Origin: Eubacterium sp.
GTDB taxonomy: Bacteria; Bacillota; Clostridia; Oscillospirales; Acutalibacteraceae
Direction: 5' to 3'
Assembly: GCA_017463985.1 (NCBI GenBank)
Contig: JAFUEH010000008.1
Span: 62,001 to 126,000 of the forward strand
DNA: 64,000 bases
Positions 15,019 through 24,229 of the stretch are shown piece after piece; the first letter of the stretch is position 1; the number at the start of each line of letters is the position of its first letter. The translations under genes and the position numbers were made by a program. The notes under the pieces were generated by a model. It did no database searches. It saw only the letters and a list, made by a program, of their open reading frames with translations, and was not told the origin of the DNA.

Positions 15019-16278
15019 ATGAAAATTGCTAAGGAATACGGCACCTTCGATTTGCAGGGCAATACCGACTTTGCCGTAGAAGAGATCACTGCACTTTGTA
15101 ACGATGTCGGCCCGCGCCGTCCCGGCTCGCCCGAAGAGCTGAAGGCGCAGCAGCACATGCAAGACGTTATGGAGCAATACAGCGACGAAACCAGAATTGA
15201 ATCCTTTACGCTGCACCGTCAGGGCTTTATGGGCTTTATCCCGTTCACGGTCGCCTGCGGCGTTATCTCGGTATTCCTCAACTGGTTCGTCAGCCCGGTA
15301 GCGGCCTTCATTCTCTGCGTGCTGGCCTTTGTACCGTTGCTGTTTGAATTCTTAATGTACAAGGAATTTGACGATTTTCTTTTCCCGAAGCAGACCTCCC
15401 ATAATATGATCGCCACCAGGAAGCCGACAGGAGAGGTAAAAAAGCGCATTGTACTGGTAGGCCATTCCGACAGTCAGTTTGAATGGAAGCTGAATTACCT
15501 GCTGGGCGGCTTACAGGCGAAGCTGTTTGTAGAAATTCCTGCCGTAGTTGGCTTGGTGATCCAAACGATCTATGCGTTGGTATGCCTGATCGTTGCCCAC
15601 GGTGGAGCGGCGCGCACCATCCAAAACAACGCGCGCTGGTTCTTCATTCTGTTCTTCGTCGTCAGCATCGTAATGATCCCGTTTGAGATCTCCTTTATCT
15701 TCTTCCAGTCCTGGCACGACAGCGTACCCGGCGCTTCGGATAACCTGTCCGGCTGTTACACGGCGATCGGCGCTGTCAAGGCGCTGGATGAGGCCGGCGT
15801 AAAATTTGAAAACACCGAGGTAGTCGTGGTGTGCTCCGGCTCAGAGGAGGCAGGCCTGCGCGGCGCAAAGGCCTTTTCCAAGAAGCATGAAAAGGAGCTG
15901 AAGGAAATTCCTACCGCTGTTGTGGCGCTGGACACCTTCCGCGATTTGGAGGACATGGCGATTTATGACCGCGATCTTTCCGGCACGGTTCAGCACGATT
16001 GGGGCGTTAAGCACCTGCTGAAAAACGCAGCGGCTAACTGCGGCTATGACCTGCCGTTTGAATCCATCTACATCGGCGGTTCCGACGCAGCTGCCTTTAC
16101 GCAGCGTAAGATCCCGGCCTCCTGTCTGGCCGCCATGAATCCCGATCCGCCGAGATATTATCACACCCGTCTTGACACACCGGAAAATATGCGCCCTGAG
16201 GCCATTACCGCCGGTTTGGAGATCGTGATCGAAACGCTCTGTATGTACGACAAAGAGGGCTGCCCAACAAAAGAATAA
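15019..16278 (+). CDS. M28-family metallopeptidase with embedded membrane segments
   Basis: 419 residues. The zinc ligand set of M28 aminopeptidases is visible: His149 in GHSDS, Asp241 in GASDN, Glu276/Glu277 in SGSEEAGLRGA, Asp305 and His382 in YYHTRLDT. Two predicted transmembrane helices (about 71-90 and 92-113) precede the catalytic core. Two more (about 168-194 and 207-230) are inserted between the first His ligand and the Asp ligand, which is unusual for this peptidase clan. No signal peptide is present. Probably a membrane-embedded aminopeptidase; the substrate is unknown. A paralogue with the same layout is at 22967-24229. Confidence 0.85.
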   Translation: MKIAKEYGTFDLQGNTDFAVEEITALCNDVGPRRPGSPEELKAQQHMQDVMEQYSDETRIESFTLHRQGFMGFIPFTVACGVISVFLNWFVSPVAAFILCVLAFVPLLFEFLMYKEFDDFLFPKQTSHNMIATRKPTGEVKKRIVLVGHSDSQFEWKLNYLLGGLQAKLFVEIPAVVGLVIQTIYALVCLIVAHGGAARTIQNNARWFFILFFVVSIVMIPFEISFIFFQSWHDSVPGASDNLSGCYTAIGAVKALDEAGVKFENTEVVVVCSGSEEAGLRGAKAFSKKHEKELKEIPTAVVALDTFRDLEDMAIYDRDLSGTVQHDWGVKHLLKNAAANCGYDLPFESIYIGGSDAAAFTQRKIPASCLAAMNPDPPRYYHTRLDTPENMRPEAITAGLEIVIETLCMYDKEGCPTKE

Positions 16279-18538: not shown

Positions 18539-19381
18539 ATGAATGCGGATATGAAAAAAGAGCTTCAGATTTTTGCCACGCAAATCAGAATGGGCATTAT
18601 CGAGAGCACCTACCGTGCCCAGTCGGGTCACCCGGGCGGTTCCCTGTCGGCAGCGGATGTGTTCGCTTACCTGTACGGCAAGGAAATGCGGTACAGAGCT
18701 GACGAACCGAAGTGGGAGGACAGAGACCGTATGGTACTGTCCAAGGGTCACTGTGCGCCGGGCTTATACAGCGCGCTGGCTTACAAAGGATTTTTCCCGG
18801 TAGAGGACTTAAAGACCCTGCGTAGGATCGACTCCTACCTGCAGGGCCATCCGAACATGAACACCGTTCCCGGCATCGACATGAGCACCGGCTCGCTCGG
18901 TCAGGGCGTCAGCGCGGCTGCCGGTATGGCGAACGCCGCCAAGTATCTGAAGAAGGACGTTAACGTGTATACCGTACTCGGTGACGGCGAGATTCAGGAG
19001 GGTCAAGTATGGGAGGCGTTTATGTACGCCGCGCATTATCGGCTCGACAACCTGTGCGTGATCATTGACTTTAACAACCTGCAGATCGACGGCCGCACCA
19101 CTGACGTTATGAACGTGCAGCCGATCGACGAAAAGCTCAAGGCCTTTGGCTTTGAAGTCGTCACCGTTAACGGTAATGACCTCGACGAGCTGGACGAAGC
19201 CTTTGAAAAGTTCCACGCGAACGAGGGCAAGCCGTTTGCTATCATTATGAAAACGCTCAAGGGCTTTGGTGTTTCCTTTATGGAGGATCAGTGCGGCTGG
19301 CACGGCAAAGCACCGAGCGACAAGGACTACGAAACCGCAATGGCTGAGCTGACAGCCAGACTGCAAGAACTGGAGGCGTAA
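18539..19381 (+). CDS. Transketolase, N-terminal (TPP-binding) subunit
   Basis: 280 residues, equal to the first half of a standard transketolase. It has the SGHPGG loop near residue 31, the RMVLSKGHCAPGLYSAL segment, and the thiamine diphosphate/Mg motif GDGEIQEGQVWEA ending near NNLQ. It pairs with the next gene to form the complete non-oxidative pentose-phosphate enzyme (a heterotetramer in organisms with split transketolase). RBS AAAGGAGG precedes ATG 18539. Confidence 0.95.
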   Translation: MNADMKKELQIFATQIRMGIIESTYRAQSGHPGGSLSAADVFAYLYGKEMRYRADEPKWEDRDRMVLSKGHCAPGLYSALAYKGFFPVEDLKTLRRIDSYLQGHPNMNTVPGIDMSTGSLGQGVSAAAGMANAAKYLKKDVNVYTVLGDGEIQEGQVWEAFMYAAHYRLDNLCVIIDFNNLQIDGRTTDVMNVQPIDEKLKAFGFEVVTVNGNDLDELDEAFEKFHANEGKPFAIIMKTLKGFGVSFMEDQCGWHGKAPSDKDYETAMAELTARLQELEA

Positions 19382-19384
19382 GGT

Positions 19385-20326
19385 ATGGCAGACGTAAAAT
19401 ATATTCCCACCCGTGAAAGCTATGGCAACGCGTTAAACGAGCTGGCTGCCGAGGGCGCTGACAAGCTGGTCGTGATCGACGCCGATCTTGCCTCCGCCAC
19501 AAAAACCGGTATCTTTAAAGCGGTTCATCCTGACAGACATTTTAACTGCGGTATTGCTGAAGCTAACCTGATTGGCACAGCAGCAGGCTTTGCGACCATG
19601 GGGCTGGTGCCGTTTGCTTCCAGCTTTGCGATGTTCGCTGCCGGCAGAGCCTTTGAACAGGTACGCAACTCCATCGGTTATCCGCATCTTAACGTAAAGA
19701 TCGGCGCCACGCACGCCGGCATTTCCGCCGGTGAGGACGGTGCGTCTCACCAGTGCTGCGAGGACTTTGCACTGATGCGTTCTATCCCGGGCATGGTCGT
19801 GATCTGCCCGTCCGACGATATCGAAGCAAAGGCTGTTGTGAAAGCGGCTTACCGTTACGAAGGTCCCGTTTATATGCGCTTTGGTCGCTCCGCCGTCCGT
19901 GTATTCCACGACGAGGACTACACCTTTACCATCGGCAAGGGAGAGATACTCAGAGAGGGCAAGGACGTCACGATCATCGCCACCGGCCTGATGGTACAGG
20001 AAGCCATCGACGCCGGCGAGCTGTTGGCCGCAAAGGGCATTGACGCTGAGATCATCAATATGCCGACGATCAAGCCGCTTGACGAGGCATTGGTACTGGC
20101 TTCCGCTAAGAAAACCGGCAAGGTGATCACAGCGGAGGAACACAACATCATCGGCGGTCTTGGCGAGGCGGTATGCGCCTGCCTGAGCGAAAACTATCCT
20201 GTACCCGTCAAGCGCATTGGCGTGAACGACGAATTCGGTCATTCCGGTACGGCAGACGCCCTGTTAAAACAGTTCGGTCTGTGCGCAGAGCACGTTGCCG
20301 AGGTAGCAGAAGCGTTTGTTAAATAA
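19385..20326 (+). CDS. Transketolase, C-terminal (pyrimidine-binding + C domain) subunit
   Basis: 313 residues covering the pyrimidine-binding domain (catalytic Glu in the FNCGIAEANLIGTAAG segment) and the C-terminal domain (TGLMVQEAIDAGELL and TAEEHNIIGGLGEAV segments). Starts 3 nt after the partner subunit stop, with AAGG just upstream, and ends before a strong terminator, so the two form a closed operon. Confidence 0.95.
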   Translation: MADVKYIPTRESYGNALNELAAEGADKLVVIDADLASATKTGIFKAVHPDRHFNCGIAEANLIGTAAGFATMGLVPFASSFAMFAAGRAFEQVRNSIGYPHLNVKIGATHAGISAGEDGASHQCCEDFALMRSIPGMVVICPSDDIEAKAVVKAAYRYEGPVYMRFGRSAVRVFHDEDYTFTIGKGEILREGKDVTIIATGLMVQEAIDAGELLAAKGIDAEIINMPTIKPLDEALVLASAKKTGKVITAEEHNIIGGLGEAVCACLSENYPVPVKRIGVNDEFGHSGTADALLKQFGLCAEHVAEVAEAFVK

Positions 20327-20350
20327 AATACCGACGACACAATACTAAGC

Positions 20351-20390
20351 AAAAGGAAGCTGGCTCTCTCCCGAGAGCCAGCTTCCTTTT
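20351..20390. terminator. Bidirectional terminator between convergent genes
   Basis: Perfect 18-bp stem (20351-20368 with 20373-20390), 4-nt loop TCCC, A run on the left and T run on the right; it serves both the transketolase operon and the minus-strand surface protein. Confidence 0.9.
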
Positions 20391-20412
20391 ATATTGTCAC
20401 AGATCCCTATAT

Positions 20413-22590
20413 TTACGGATTTAAGCAGACGCCGCTGTTGTTAAAGCGATAGGTCTTGCCGCCCTGCGTCAGGTTCGCCGTGCGCATATCGCCGTTAGCG
20501 TTCAGATAATACCAGCTGCCGCTCTCCTTGAGCCAACCGGTTTTCATATCGCCGTTCGTATTGAAATAATACCACTTGCCGTTAATATATTTCCAGCCTG
20601 TTGCCATGGCGCCGTTGCTGCTGAGATAGTACCACTTGCCGCCGAGCTTCTTCCAGCCGGTCACCATCGCGCCGTTTTCATCCATATAATACCAGCTGCC
20701 GTTCACCTTTTTCCAACCGGTGGCCATCGCACCGCTGTTGTCAAAGTAGTACCAGCTACCCTTAATTTTGAGCCAGCCGGTGATCATAACGCCCTTGCTG
20801 TTCAGGTAGTACCACTTGCCGTCCACCTGCTGCCAGTATTTCTGCGCAACATCCTTTTTGTAATAATACCAACTGCCGTTTTCTTTGAGCCAGCCGTTTT
20901 TGACCAGCTTCGGCAGCACCGTTTCCTCCGTTTCGCCGCAGAATACACACTCCTTGGTTTCCTTGCCTGCCTGCGTATAGGTCGCCGGCTGGACAGTTGT
21001 TTTCCAAACGTGATCGGGATAAACGAAGTCGCTGCTGTCTGTTGCTTTTCTGAAATAGCCGAGGCCGACGACCGCGTCTGCCGTCGCAAAATAATCCCCT
21101 GCGTCGTCCAGCTGGAAGATGCCGGTATTCCCTTCAAAGCCCTCCACCAGGTTCTTATAATAGCGGAAGGCGCCGGCCGTGTCTCCGACAGCGGCAAACG
21201 CACCCATTGCCAGCGCCGTAGAGTTGGCATTGACCTCCGTTACCATACCGGCGTCGTCATTATAAGCGCCATTCTCACGGGTATAGGAACGGATCACGTT
21301 CTTTGCATCCTCTACGTAATCGCTGAAATCGTCAGCATACTTGGCGATCGCCATCAGGAAATAAGAGGTATTGTCACAGCAGAATACGCCGTTATACAAG
21401 CCCTTGCCCATCTTATAGTAGTTATCGATCAGGTCCTGACAGAGCGCTTTGCCCTTTTCGCTGTCCGCTGCTTCGATCGCAAAACGGTAGTAATAGGGAT
21501 GTGTTTTTGCTTCGGTAATGTCCGCGGCCGCATAAGCAGCAGCAATATCGTAGCCCTTGAAATCAGACGGGTCATAACCGAGTGCTTTCAAGGAGACGAT
21601 CACCGCGCCGTAGAAGCCGACGTCCTCCTTACCGCTATAGGGGGATTTCAGTAGGCCGCCGTTTTTCGCCAGATTCTCCGCTACGCTGTCAGCAAAGGCG
21701 TCGCCGTAAGCGCTCATGTCGTAGCCGGTCATCACCATAGCGGCAAAGCGCACAGCGTCAGCAGCGCTGAAGCTTTCGTAAGCGCTGACCAGATAATCGC
21801 CGCCCTTTTGAATTTCCTCGGTGATGTAGTCGTTATACACCTGCACCGTACACCATGGGGCAAAGATGTCATATTCGTCATAATCGTTTTCATACATACC
21901 GACAGCGGTAACGCCGTAGGTGCCTACCGCGTCATACGACAGCGTAACCTGACCGTTTTCGTCTGTAACGCCAAGCTCGTTGCCCCATTCGTCTGTCACA
22001 AGCATATCAGCGACCGGCACCGTGACCGGATTCCAGTCCTCGTCGTAATCCTCGACATTCAGCGTAAGCGTTACCGTGCCGCCGGGAACGGTGCCTGCCT
22101 CGCGCTTATCAAAAAAGGTATACTTGTCGCTGTAAAAATAATCGTCCTGATAGAAATAGAACTCCACAATGTCGCCGTTGCTGATCGCCTCGTTCGGAGA
22201 GCTCGGCATACCGCCGTTCACACGGTAACCCAGCGCATTCGTGCTTTCACCAAACACTGACTTGAACATCGGATAGCCATACTGATCCGTGATCTGCACC
22301 GGTGCATAGTCCATGAAGTCCTCACCGAACAGCTCGAGGTGCGCCTGCAGGATCGCGTCCAGAATCGACGGTTCCTCGATCGTATCGGCATAACCGACAG
22401 CGTCTGCATAGCGGTCGTCCAGATCAGCCGGCACAGTAATTTTTTGCGGATTCATAATGTACACGCCGCCGTCGAACGCGCCGAAGGTAACGGTAACGCT
22501 CTTGGCAGTGTCGGCCATTGCTGCTGTACCGAACAGCAGGCAGCTGCTCGCCATCAGTACCGCGAGCAGTAAGGATAATACTTTTTTCAT
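20413..22590 (-). CDS. Secreted transcobalamin-like protein with choline-binding-type wall repeats
   Basis: 725 residues. The signal peptide (about 1-28) is followed by a domain ending in LGYRVNGG...NGDIVEFYF, the DUF4430/transcobalamin C-terminal-like pattern (about 30-165), then an Ig-like domain (about 170-240). A helical domain follows (about 250-520) with spaced repeats such as NSTALAMGAF and YFATADAVVGLGYF, resembling the alpha/alpha toroid of terpenoid cyclases and of intrinsic factor. A short Cys-containing HVWK...CVFCGETEE domain and eight C-terminal 20-residue aromatic repeats complete it. A cobalamin riboswitch precedes the gene, so capture of cobalamin at the cell surface is the best inference. 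ATG 22590 has AGGAGG upstream; the longer frame would run through the riboswitch terminator. Confidence 0.82.
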   Translation of the reverse strand: MKKVLSLLLAVLMASSCLLFGTAAMADTAKSVTVTFGAFDGGVYIMNPQKITVPADLDDRYADAVGYADTIEEPSILDAILQAHLELFGEDFMDYAPVQITDQYGYPMFKSVFGESTNALGYRVNGGMPSSPNEAISNGDIVEFYFYQDDYFYSDKYTFFDKREAGTVPGGTVTLTLNVEDYDEDWNPVTVPVADMLVTDEWGNELGVTDENGQVTLSYDAVGTYGVTAVGMYENDYDEYDIFAPWCTVQVYNDYITEEIQKGGDYLVSAYESFSAADAVRFAAMVMTGYDMSAYGDAFADSVAENLAKNGGLLKSPYSGKEDVGFYGAVIVSLKALGYDPSDFKGYDIAAAYAAADITEAKTHPYYYRFAIEAADSEKGKALCQDLIDNYYKMGKGLYNGVFCCDNTSYFLMAIAKYADDFSDYVEDAKNVIRSYTRENGAYNDDAGMVTEVNANSTALAMGAFAAVGDTAGAFRYYKNLVEGFEGNTGIFQLDDAGDYFATADAVVGLGYFRKATDSSDFVYPDHVWKTTVQPATYTQAGKETKECVFCGETEETVLPKLVKNGWLKENGSWYYYKKDVAQKYWQQVDGKWYYLNSKGVMITGWLKIKGSWYYFDNSGAMATGWKKVNGSWYYMDENGAMVTGWKKLGGKWYYLSSNGAMATGWKYINGKWYYFNTNGDMKTGWLKESGSWYYLNANGDMRTANLTQGGKTYRFNNSGVCLNP
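20416..20901 (-). repeat. Eight tandem choline-binding-type repeats
   Basis: About residues 564-725 of the surface protein: 20-residue units of the form TGW-x5-GxWYYxxxxGxM, the cell-wall-binding repeat (CW_binding_1) class that attaches proteins non-covalently to wall polymers. First and last units are degenerate. Confidence 0.85.
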
Positions 22591-22608
22591 ACATAACCTC
22601 CTATAAAG

Positions 22609-22664
22609 AAAAAGCTCTGCCTCGGGCAGAGTAGAGCATGAAAAAAGGCGCGCTGAAAAAGCGC
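22609..22664 (-). terminator. Two tandem hairpins forming the riboswitch expression platform
   Basis: Read leftward: a 5-bp stem (22660-22664 with 22650-22654) followed by six T (22646-22641), then a 7-bp stem CTCTGCC/GGCAGAG (22615-22621, 22625-22631) followed by a T run (22613-22609). Both stand between the aptamer and the RBS. Confidence 0.7.
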
Positions 22665-22713
22665 AGTCAATTCTCAACCCTTCCGCTTGCCCAAAGGTCT
22701 GAATTCCAACAAA

Positions 22714-22852
22714 CAGCTCGTCTCCCGACTTGTGATATAGCCATGCTTGCCGCTCGCCTTCTCAGGCATAGATACTGCCCAATGGCTCTGAGCGCCTTCA
22801 TCAGTTACGGTAATGGCGGTTGTTCGGGACTCTCACCCGATTCCGTTAGCTG
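22714..22852 (-). promoter_or_regulatory. Cobalamin riboswitch aptamer
   Basis: On the minus strand the 5' half carries the AATCGGGTGAGAGTCCCGA helix and the CAACCGCC element. The core follows with GCCATTGG and TGAGAAGGCG, and the 3' end has a B12-box-like AAGTCGGGAGACGAGCTG (22732-22715). Order and spacing match cobalamin riboswitches. The aptamer begins about 9 nt after the predicted transcription start. Two terminators downstream suggest transcriptional OFF control by cobalamin. Confidence 0.88.
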
Positions 22853-22867
22853 CTTATCTGCACACCG

Positions 22868-22896
22868 ATTATAGCACGGTCGCAGCCAAATTACAA
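22868..22896 (-). promoter_or_regulatory. Promoter of the riboswitch transcript
   Basis: Minus strand TTGTAA (22896-22891), 17-nt spacer, TATAAT (22873-22868). Divergent from the promoter at 22905-22933. Confidence 0.65.
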
Positions 22897-22904
22897 TATT
22901 TTTA

Positions 22905-22933
22905 TTGCAAGCCCGCCGTATTTGATGTATAAT
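22905..22933 (+). promoter_or_regulatory. Promoter of the second M28 gene
   Basis: TTGCAA (22905-22910), 17-nt spacer, TATAAT (22928-22933). Confidence 0.75.
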
Positions 22934-22966
22934 CTGTATGAAATCACTATTAAAGGAGCGGTCAAC

Positions 22967-24229
22967 ATGAATCTTCAAAAGATTATTGACAAAAAGGACT
23001 GGGCTGCGCAGTATATGATCGACGAAATTACCCACGTCATCAAAACCTTTGAAAAAAGAGAGCCCGGTTCCAAGGGCGAGCTGCAAGCCACGGAATACAT
23101 GGCAGAGGTGCTGGAAAAGGACTGCGGCTGTGACCCGAGCTTAACGAAAATCGAAGGGTTTAAAGAGAATCCCGGCTCGTTCTTCGGGTGGATCTACTTC
23201 ACCATCACGTTTGTACTGCTGGCGATCGTGCTGTACTTTTTCTTCCCGGTGATCTCGATCGTACTGATTGCCGCCGGACTGTTCATTGCGCTGATGGAAT
23301 TCGGTATGTACAAAAAATTTGTTGACTGGGCGTTCCCTGAGAAAACCGGCCACAATGTCACCGCCGTCAAGCCGCCGAAGGGTGAGGTAAAACGCCGCAT
23401 GGTATTCAACGGCCACAGCGACGCTGCCTGGGAATGGCCGGTGAACTACAAGCTCGGCGGTGTCGGCTTTGAGGGACACGCCATTATCTGCGCGATCGGC
23501 GCCATCTATTTTATCGTCGTTTCTGCGATCTATATCCACCATTTCGGCTGGATGGGCGTCGCGGTCAATCCAAGAGTCGCGATCGGGGATATGTGGTTTA
23601 TCAAGGCGGCGCTATGGGGACTGCTGTTTGTGCCGTTTGAAATCGGTCTGTATTTTATGTGGAATGAACACCGCATTGTTGACGGCGCTAACGACAACCT
23701 GACCGGCTGCTTTATGGGCATTGCGGTACTGAAGGCGCTGCAGGACGAGGGCATTGAGCTGGAAAACACGGAGCTTGCCGTCGTTAACTGCGGTTCAGAG
23801 GAGGCAGGTCTGCGCGGCTCTAAGGCTTGGGCAGAGGCGCACAAGGGTGAATGGCAGGATGTACCGACCTTCTTCATCTCCTACGATACCATTCATGACC
23901 CGAAATACCTGATGGTCAACTACCGCGATCTGAACGGCACCGTGAAATCCGATAAGGACGTTTCCGACCTGTTCCTGGAGGCGGCAAAGGAGGTAAAGGT
24001 ACCGGTTGTCAAGGGCTGGGTTCCCCCGCTCGGCGGCGCAACCGACAACGCAGCTTTTAACCAAGGCGGCTTCCGCTCGACCGGTATCACCGGCCTGAAC
24101 CACAAGCTGGAGGATTATTATCACACGCGCCGTGATACTTATGACAACATGAACGCCGAGGGTCTTGCCAACTGCTTTGCAGCCACGGTGAAGGCGCTGG
24201 AAAAATTTGATAACGGAGCAAAGCAGTAA
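22967..24229 (+). CDS. M28-family metallopeptidase with embedded membrane segments (paralogue)
   Basis: 420 residues and the same architecture as the protein at 15019-16278. Zinc ligands are His150 in GHSDA, Asp243 in ANDNLTG, Glu278/Glu279 in CGSEEAGLRGS, Asp307 and His386 in YYHTRRDT. Helices at about 71-112 precede the core and a helical pair at about 170-190 and 210-232 lies inside it. ATG 22967 with AAAGGAG upstream is chosen; the ORF start further upstream overlaps the -10 box. It forms a unit with the small DUF4250 gene that follows after 1 nt. Confidence 0.85.
   Translation: MNLQKIIDKKDWAAQYMIDEITHVIKTFEKREPGSKGELQATEYMAEVLEKDCGCDPSLTKIEGFKENPGSFFGWIYFTITFVLLAIVLYFFFPVISIVLIAAGLFIALMEFGMYKKFVDWAFPEKTGHNVTAVKPPKGEVKRRMVFNGHSDAAWEWPVNYKLGGVGFEGHAIICAIGAIYFIVVSAIYIHHFGWMGVAVNPRVAIGDMWFIKAALWGLLFVPFEIGLYFMWNEHRIVDGANDNLTGCFMGIAVLKALQDEGIELENTELAVVNCGSEEAGLRGSKAWAEAHKGEWQDVPTFFISYDTIHDPKYLMVNYRDLNGTVKSDKDVSDLFLEAAKEVKVPVVKGWVPPLGGATDNAAFNQGGFRSTGITGLNHKLEDYYHTRRDTYDNMNAEGLANCFAATVKALEKFDNGAKQ

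Follow-up and report, generated by a model that had tools for sequence, protein, structure and literature searches.

The gene and its leader RNA

We analysed a 64,000-nucleotide stretch of DNA from Eubacterium sp. (assembly GCA_017463985.1, contig JAFUEH010000008.1, positions 62,001 to 126,000 of the forward strand), hereafter the window, in which a cobalamin riboswitch precedes the gene of a secreted surface protein. The subject of this study is the possible role of this protein in the capture of cobalamin. The features of the locus, with positions counted in the window, are:

22868..22896, minus strand: predicted promoter TTGTAA-N17-TATAAT with extended -10 (consensus scan, 10/12 matches)
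22698..22884, minus strand: cobalamin riboswitch aptamer (RF00174, 64.4 bits, model positions 1-189)
22688..22696, minus strand: candidate antiterminator strand (minimum-energy fold of the leader)
22649..22665, minus strand: first terminator-like hairpin with U tract (terminator scan)
22615..22631, minus strand: second terminator-like hairpin with U tract (terminator scan)
22597..22602, minus strand: AGGAGG ribosome-binding site (sequence)
20413..22590, minus strand: gene of a 725-amino-acid secreted surface protein (translation)
22513..22590, minus strand: signal peptide, residues ~1-26 (sequence, by eye)
22141..22509, minus strand: divergent, probably DUF4430-like beta domain, residues ~28-150 (kin to riboswitch- and ECF-linked secreted proteins; hhalign)
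21835..22095, minus strand: immunoglobulin (Ig)/CarboxypepD_reg-like domain, residues ~166-252 (weak Pfam matches)
21037..21834, minus strand: alpha/alpha-toroid-like helical domain, residues 253-518 (hhalign, profile A5 vs A6)
20905..21027, minus strand: CxxC linker, residues 522-562 (sequence)
20416..20898, minus strand: eight choline-binding-type wall-binding repeats (PF01473)
20350..20391, minus strand: strong terminator-like hairpin of 19 pairs, 3' of the gene (terminator scan)

A covariance-model search confirmed the cobalamin aptamer that an initial annotation of this DNA had read upstream of the gene: the RF00174 match lies well above the gathering score of the full model (31.5 bits; E 1.3e-13 in the 64-kb window) and is the sole match to this family in the 2.58-Mb genome. 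In the alignment, P1 of the aptamer has several non-standard pairs. The predicted promoter extends into the 5' end of the Rfam match, a consensus match not being functional evidence by itself. Cobalamin riboswitches are described as OFF switches (PMC11477304, in excerpt), and the direction of regulation, repression by B12, is taken from this aptamer class.

The two terminator hairpins of the initial annotation were likewise located (22665-22649 and 22631-22615), both well placed between the aptamer and the ribosome-binding site. As the number of terminator-like sites in positions 20300-23050 is not above chance (4, with 3.0 expected in shuffles), the argument for terminators is their position. 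In the folded leader, the strand just 3' of the aptamer is predicted to pair with the 5' arm of the second terminator at 22620-22628 (z -1.64), which makes it a possible antiterminator; since the fold of the whole leader showed no extra stability over shuffles (z -0.69), we treat the switching pairs as a proposal. In relatives, a terminator was found in the leaders of 32 of the 57 linked loci scanned (of 62), and where only about 20 nucleotides separate the aptamer from the open reading frame (ORF) the space is too short for a terminator, which suggests translational control at those loci.

The coding sequence runs from the ATG at 22590 through 725 codons to a stop at 20413-20415; a longer ORF starting with TTG was rejected, as it would extend into the leader. 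The eight wall-binding repeats described for the C-terminus were recovered by PF01473 as eight stretches with 157 bits (Pfam cut-off 20.5), the tandem array of choline-binding repeat proteins. Whole-protein searches of Pfam, NCBIfam and the PDB gave significant matches to these repeats only, and the top-ranked candidates (large clostridial toxins, the PspA/PspC models and CbpF) were discarded as relatives because they match the repeats alone; the likeness to choline-binding surface proteins of the PspA and CbpF type is limited to this shared anchor. At E up to 10, Pfam lists five families for the protein; PF14478, prenyltransferase and PF01122, the last of which we take to be the cobalamin-binding alpha/alpha barrel family, are not among them, nor is any propeller family. 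The Ig-like domain of the window protein is matched weakly by Big_3_5 (E 0.0062), and CarboxypepD_reg is matched, again weakly (best E 6.5e-4), by 11 of the 22 members of the N-domain family profile introduced below. Because Pfam and NCBIfam recognise the repeats alone, the DUF4430 and toroid labels rest on remote similarity.

Linkage to cobalamin riboswitches in related genomes

Homologues of the ectodomain were searched in relatives comprising Oscillospiraceae, Ruminococcaceae, 'Eubacterium sp.' and uncultured Clostridia, many of them from rumen or gut. In a family sample, 15 of 200 genomes (our own included) matched the ectodomain. The 19 loci compared consist of 17 from the 14 other genomes, the window locus and the DUF4430 locus of the same genome (L001), and seven of the 19, the window locus included, contain a cobalamin-class riboswitch at gathering scores. 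A genome-level search added riboswitches beside homologues in G015 (40.3 bits) and G098 (23.7 bits, below threshold). Within the genus, an ectodomain homologue is present in 70 of 80 genomes and a cobalamin riboswitch in 72, with 76 switches in total. In 62 of the 70 homologue-bearing genomes a same-strand riboswitch precedes the match by 103-1702 nucleotides, and 62/76 switches have this position. Such linkage is missing at 11 of the 74 homologue places; several of these are on contigs other than that of the switch, which may reflect assembly breaks.

These counts bear on the explanation that gene and riboswitch are juxtaposed by chance, with the riboswitch controlling something else and the gene encoding an unrelated wall protein. 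The flanking genes of the window, a transketolase pair and M28-like peptidases, would agree with this, having no B12 link by eye, but the same-strand adjacency in 62/70 genomes makes chance very unlikely, to the point of being negligible.

The two domains of the ectodomain

The helical domain was compared using two profiles: A5, built from 63 proteins (the window protein and 62 from the same genus), and A6, built from the toroid regions of five toroid+DUF4430 proteins from energy-coupling factor (ECF) operons of other genera. All five members of A6 match the DUF4430 and prenyltransferase-toroid Pfam models, and A6 matches squalene-hopene cyclases in the PDB (E 1.7e-9). In hhalign, A5 matched A6 at 95.6% (E 1.3e-8), and in a rerun on trimmed alignments none of 200 column shuffles reached the observed score (66.4; best shuffle 23.1). 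The toroid assignment of the helical domain is well supported by this comparison, so the domain named in the initial annotation holds at the profile-profile level and not as a Pfam toroid match. In the toroid+DUF4430 proteins of L025, L022, L028, L029 and L026, the two domains are parted by a low-complexity stretch and hydrophobic segments, as judged by eye, and both may sit on one membrane-anchored chain.

The N-terminal domain is homologous to secreted proteins linked to riboswitches and to ECF genes, 22 of which form the N-domain family profile A8. DUF4430, which is present in transcobalamin (TCN; PMC4350170, in excerpt), was represented by A9 (50 sequences) and the smaller profile A7. A8 matched A9 at 89.7% (E 1.8e-6), and on trimmed alignments 0/300 shuffles reached the score (best 20.7, observed 44.1). 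The match of A8 to A7 was marginal (53-58%; 34.0 observed, with 32.5 for the best of 200 shuffles). In PDB searches A8 gave nothing significant, A7 gave chance-level matches only, and A9 had transcobalamin-2 in second place with an E of 0.52, which is suggestive only. As with the toroid, the DUF4430-like domain of the initial annotation survives as a remote profile-profile match, PF14478 itself finding no match in Pfam.

A separate DUF4430 gene accompanies many of the toroid genes in relatives. Among 25 loci examined for a gap ORF, chosen mainly for a long distance between switch and toroid gene, 22 have an ORF in this gap, and all 22 match A7, which was built without them, with E 8.2e-34 or better; most are lipoprotein-like by eye. 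When neighbours were counted at 68 loci with a toroid ORF (69 were fetched, one being without), an adjacent DUF4430 gene was present at 39: upstream on the same strand in 23, divergent in 15 and downstream in one. Only a single one of the 15 proteins bearing an N-domain has such a neighbour, compared with 38 of the 53 without an N-domain (Fisher p 7e-6; the test ignores relatedness, contig ends truncate some of the loci, and 11 of the 15 N-domains had themselves gone into the profile used). Such complementarity suggests that an N-domain takes the place of a separate DUF4430 partner and that toroid and DUF4430 act together. The best reading of these gene arrangements is that the two halves of a transcobalamin-like clamp are separate genes in relatives, whereas the window protein would have both in one chain.

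Importer genes and wall anchors

Clusters that are headed by an N-domain protein and include ECF genes occur in six genomes (G098, G145, G080, G174, G015 and G069); the ECF genes were assigned by eye except in G145 and for the profiled S-components, the S gene of G015 being unchecked. Five of the six clusters include a toroid+DUF4430 protein, with G080 instead containing a propeller protein and a DUF4430 lipoprotein. A profile of the S-components of four clusters (A2; G174, G098, G145 and G080) had CbrT as its best match among solved structures (6FNP, E 4.9e-18; next 5.1e-8), 6FNP being the CbrT structure (PMC5997447, in excerpt). It found an S-component in 12/12 genomes tried, with one in our own genome (G000:C3:11249-11971), which by itself also has 6FNP_A as best match (E 1.3e-11; next 0.0012).

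This S-component is part of an ECF row at C3:11249-14729 consisting of a corrinoid adenosyltransferase (BtuR; PF02572, 130.8 bits), EcfT, a fused A-A' and S; by eye, the same row is present in G021. ECF ATPase models match the A-A' protein with scores below cut-off, as does CbiQ the T gene (24.2 bits, cut-off 25). The S-component is thus related to CbrT and stands within an ECF module, as would an ECF-CbrT partner, and the arrangement resembles ECF-CbrT of L. delbrueckii (6FNP), where cbrT lies beside pduO, just as our own S-component is near a corrinoid adenosyltransferase gene (PMC5997447, in excerpt). The excerpts of the ECF-CbrT literature (PMC5997447, PMC9963975) mention no wall-bound catcher. 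A DUF4430 lipoprotein is encoded apart at G000:C40, and the sole PF02310 protein of the genome is MetH. The btuFCD genes suggested earlier as partners had to be given up: no FecCD/BtuC-type permease was found in the genome, with 13 of 14 control genomes positive, and the importer found is an ECF one whose genes are not linked to that of the window protein.

The wall anchor was compared over the C-terminal ends of 68 ORFs, classed by simple patterns (a stricter pattern missed two of the six repeat-type ends) as sortase-like (30), fn3-like (17), choline-binding-type repeats (6; L159, L160, L163, L164, L165 and L167), membrane helix (2), cut (4) and other (9). Among the proteins examined, only the window protein has N-domain, toroid and repeats together; a protein of G098 has two N-domains and repeats but no toroid. 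The own genome contains at least 150 choline-binding-type repeats in at least 35 distinct open frames (150 of 346 candidates scored), as well as two LicD proteins. With at least 35 frames using such repeats, the anchor is the house style of the organism, and since relatives mostly have sortase-like or fn3-like ends, the idea that it constitutes a new design for B12 scavenging was abandoned.

A proposed capture system

From this gene company we consider it probable that the window gene encodes a B12-repressed, wall-held cobamide-capture protein, made at low intracellular cobalamin and feeding an ECF importer. The surface cobalamin-capture protein of the initial annotation is strongly supported in this form by the riboswitch linkage, the DUF4430 partner genes and the CbrT-like ECF importer, with the btuFCD partner and the special anchor falling away. 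With ligand bound, the leader would form one or both terminators and turn the gene off; without ligand, a competing pairing would let transcription reach the gene. The secreted protein would dock non-covalently on the wall through its repeats, and the DUF4430-like and toroid domains of its single chain would grip the corrinoid between them, like the two domains of transcobalamin and intrinsic factor. The corrinoid would then pass to the DUF4430 lipoprotein (G000:C40) and the ECF-CbrT-like transporter (G000:C3). Once imported, it would be adenosylated by the enzyme whose gene neighbours those of the transporter, and would serve MetH.

Several points weigh against this proposal. The ligand is one that we infer from the riboswitch and the gene company, as we do the fold of the ectodomain from profiles, and B12 binding and kinship to intrinsic factor are proposals. 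A5 gave nothing significant in the PDB, its matches at E up to 10 including no cobalamin binder and no toroid, and in Pfam only one of its 63 members touches a toroid family among the best 25 of 35 families (TED_complement, E 0.029). The N-terminal domain is probably DUF4430-like, but this is a remote assignment: when A8 is split by clade, the window clade reaches 59.8% and the small-protein clade 4.3%, and a hidden Markov model of A8 finds none of the DUF4430 lipoproteins at E up to 10. On the importer side, the nearest NCBIfam family of the S-component is a folate one and that of the adenosyltransferase is cobA, both below cut-off, and neither the genes of the transporter nor that of the lipoprotein are linked to the window gene. 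Finally, 14 of the 76 riboswitches of the genus have no homologue behind them, and two of these, each the second cobalamin riboswitch of its genome (G226 and G254), are followed by anchored proteins of the Ig/CarboxypepD_reg type (L229:1135-3378 and L230:4970-7381) in which neither toroid nor DUF4430 was detected.

The regions of 12 of these 14 switches, L229 and L230 among them, were fetched. Five contain a very large DUF4430 surface protein downstream (L224, L225, L226, L227 and L232), one a divergent DUF4430 gene (L228), and four are cut or too short to tell (L223, L231, L233 and L234). The other two unlinked switches, in G149 and G021 of the same genus and without homologue, precede a large GLUG + DUF4430 protein; the one in G149 includes, in addition, a region resembling a toroid (SQHop_cyclase_N at E 0.0012, below cut-off) and carries an SPLTG tail.

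The proteins of L229 and L230 could also be read as favouring a surface protein regulated by B12 but not itself a B12 binder, e.g. an adhesin or a binder of host B12 carriers, made under B12 limitation to relocate the cell or take a loaded carrier. Wall anchors of these types and Ig/fn3 parts are common in adhesins. We nevertheless hold this to be quite improbable, as it is the toroid that is conserved behind the riboswitch across the genus, with the anchors varying, and as ECF clusters of other genera are headed by members of the window protein's N-domain family.

Comparison with known cobalamin-binding systems

Animal intrinsic factor, transcobalamin and haptocorrin are secreted like the window protein, and would resemble it in their two parts, a toroid and a DUF4430-type beta domain, and in the high-affinity capture proposed here. 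In the animal proteins the alpha/alpha barrel (toroid) comes first and the beta domain follows; the window protein has the reverse order, with the beta domain before the toroid, and is wall-anchored, and its relatives are often split over two genes. With the profiles of the window protein's domains, no significant sequence match was found to animal B12 carriers. What remains of the likeness to intrinsic factor and transcobalamin drawn in the initial annotation is therefore the presence of toroid and DUF4430 parts at profile level, a remote resemblance (transcobalamin-2 at E 0.52, reached with the partner DUF4430 profile) in reversed order.

BtuG and BtuH belong to Gram-negative outer-membrane systems, and differ from the window protein in having other folds. 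They are alike in that these Bacteroides proteins are encoded in cobamide-riboswitch loci and help a transporter to capture B12 (PMC8941943, in excerpt). They also show how B12 might be captured here through a site unlike that of transcobalamin, with the resemblance to intrinsic factor being at fold level or accidental: BtuG is a beta-propeller and BtuH has a C-terminal globular domain with no known structural homologues, so that folds without relation to each other fill this role under the control of B12 riboswitches (PMC8941943, in excerpt), and the toroid profile matches no solved cobalamin binder. This alternative appears unlikely to us, however, because the genus couples the toroid precisely with DUF4430, as an adjacent gene, or with a DUF4430-like domain in one chain, these being the two parts of transcobalamin, and because the PDB search with A8 returned no BtuH- or BtuG-named chain (the presence of BtuH in that PDB copy being unchecked).

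In a lactobacillus, a DUF4430 protein of unknown function has been reported beside the rtpR gene, and the same proteome paper separately gives the annotation 'additional lipoprotein component of putative cobalamin ECF transporter' (PMC9963975, in excerpt). With this annotation and the BtuG/BtuH capture proteins on record, the kind of system is known; the form described here, wall-held, transcobalamin-like and either split or fused, did not turn up in our searches of open-access papers. These yielded nothing on toroid/DUF4430 surface proteins controlled by a cobalamin riboswitch, the nearest being PMC8941943 and PMC9963975, both in excerpt.

Returning to the wall-held capture protein that we favour, cobamide capture by gut Firmicutes is little known (PMC8941943, in excerpt), and this system, if real, would be to Gram-positive bacteria what BtuG/BtuH are to Bacteroides, with a design in two parts like that of transcobalamin, and it could be tested in cultivable relatives. 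It would also offer a natural split clamp, the halves of which can be studied apart, and has implications for B12 competition in the rumen and gut and for the source of the animal carriers. A more tentative generalisation, to which we give somewhat less than even chances, is that Oscillospiraceae use bacterial transcobalamins, i.e. a riboswitch-controlled DUF4430/toroid clamp consisting of two neighbouring surface proteins in many species of the genus and of one chain in others, with freely exchanged wall anchors, feeding ECF-CbrT. Animal B12 carriers would then share their design, and perhaps their origin, with bacterial B12-scavenging proteins.

Other observations

One riboswitch-controlled surface protein of 2613 amino acids (L052:844-8685) combines GLUG, DUF4430, a toroid-like region and a sortase-type end, with the beta domain before the toroid, the same order as in the window protein. 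A small HNH_repeat (PF18780) protein recurs between the cobalamin riboswitch and a large surface protein of the GLUG/DUF4430 type. The loci are L223, L224, L225, L227, L232, L053 and L028 (e.g. L224:6806-7198 and L028:9422-9697; assigned by Pfam scan in 4/7 loci and by eye in the rest), and in L028 the small protein stands before an N-domain protein instead of the GLUG/DUF4430 type. A PQQ/BamB-like beta-propeller protein (L027:10503-11834) is encoded in one cluster together with ECF genes and an AdoCbl-II riboswitch; it was considered as BtuG-like and rejected, as it matches BamB-type propellers, and these weakly. Lastly, the transketolase gene pair of the window (18539-20326) and the gene studied here are together flanked on both sides by similar M28-like peptidase genes (15019-16278 and 22922-24229), as seen by eye.

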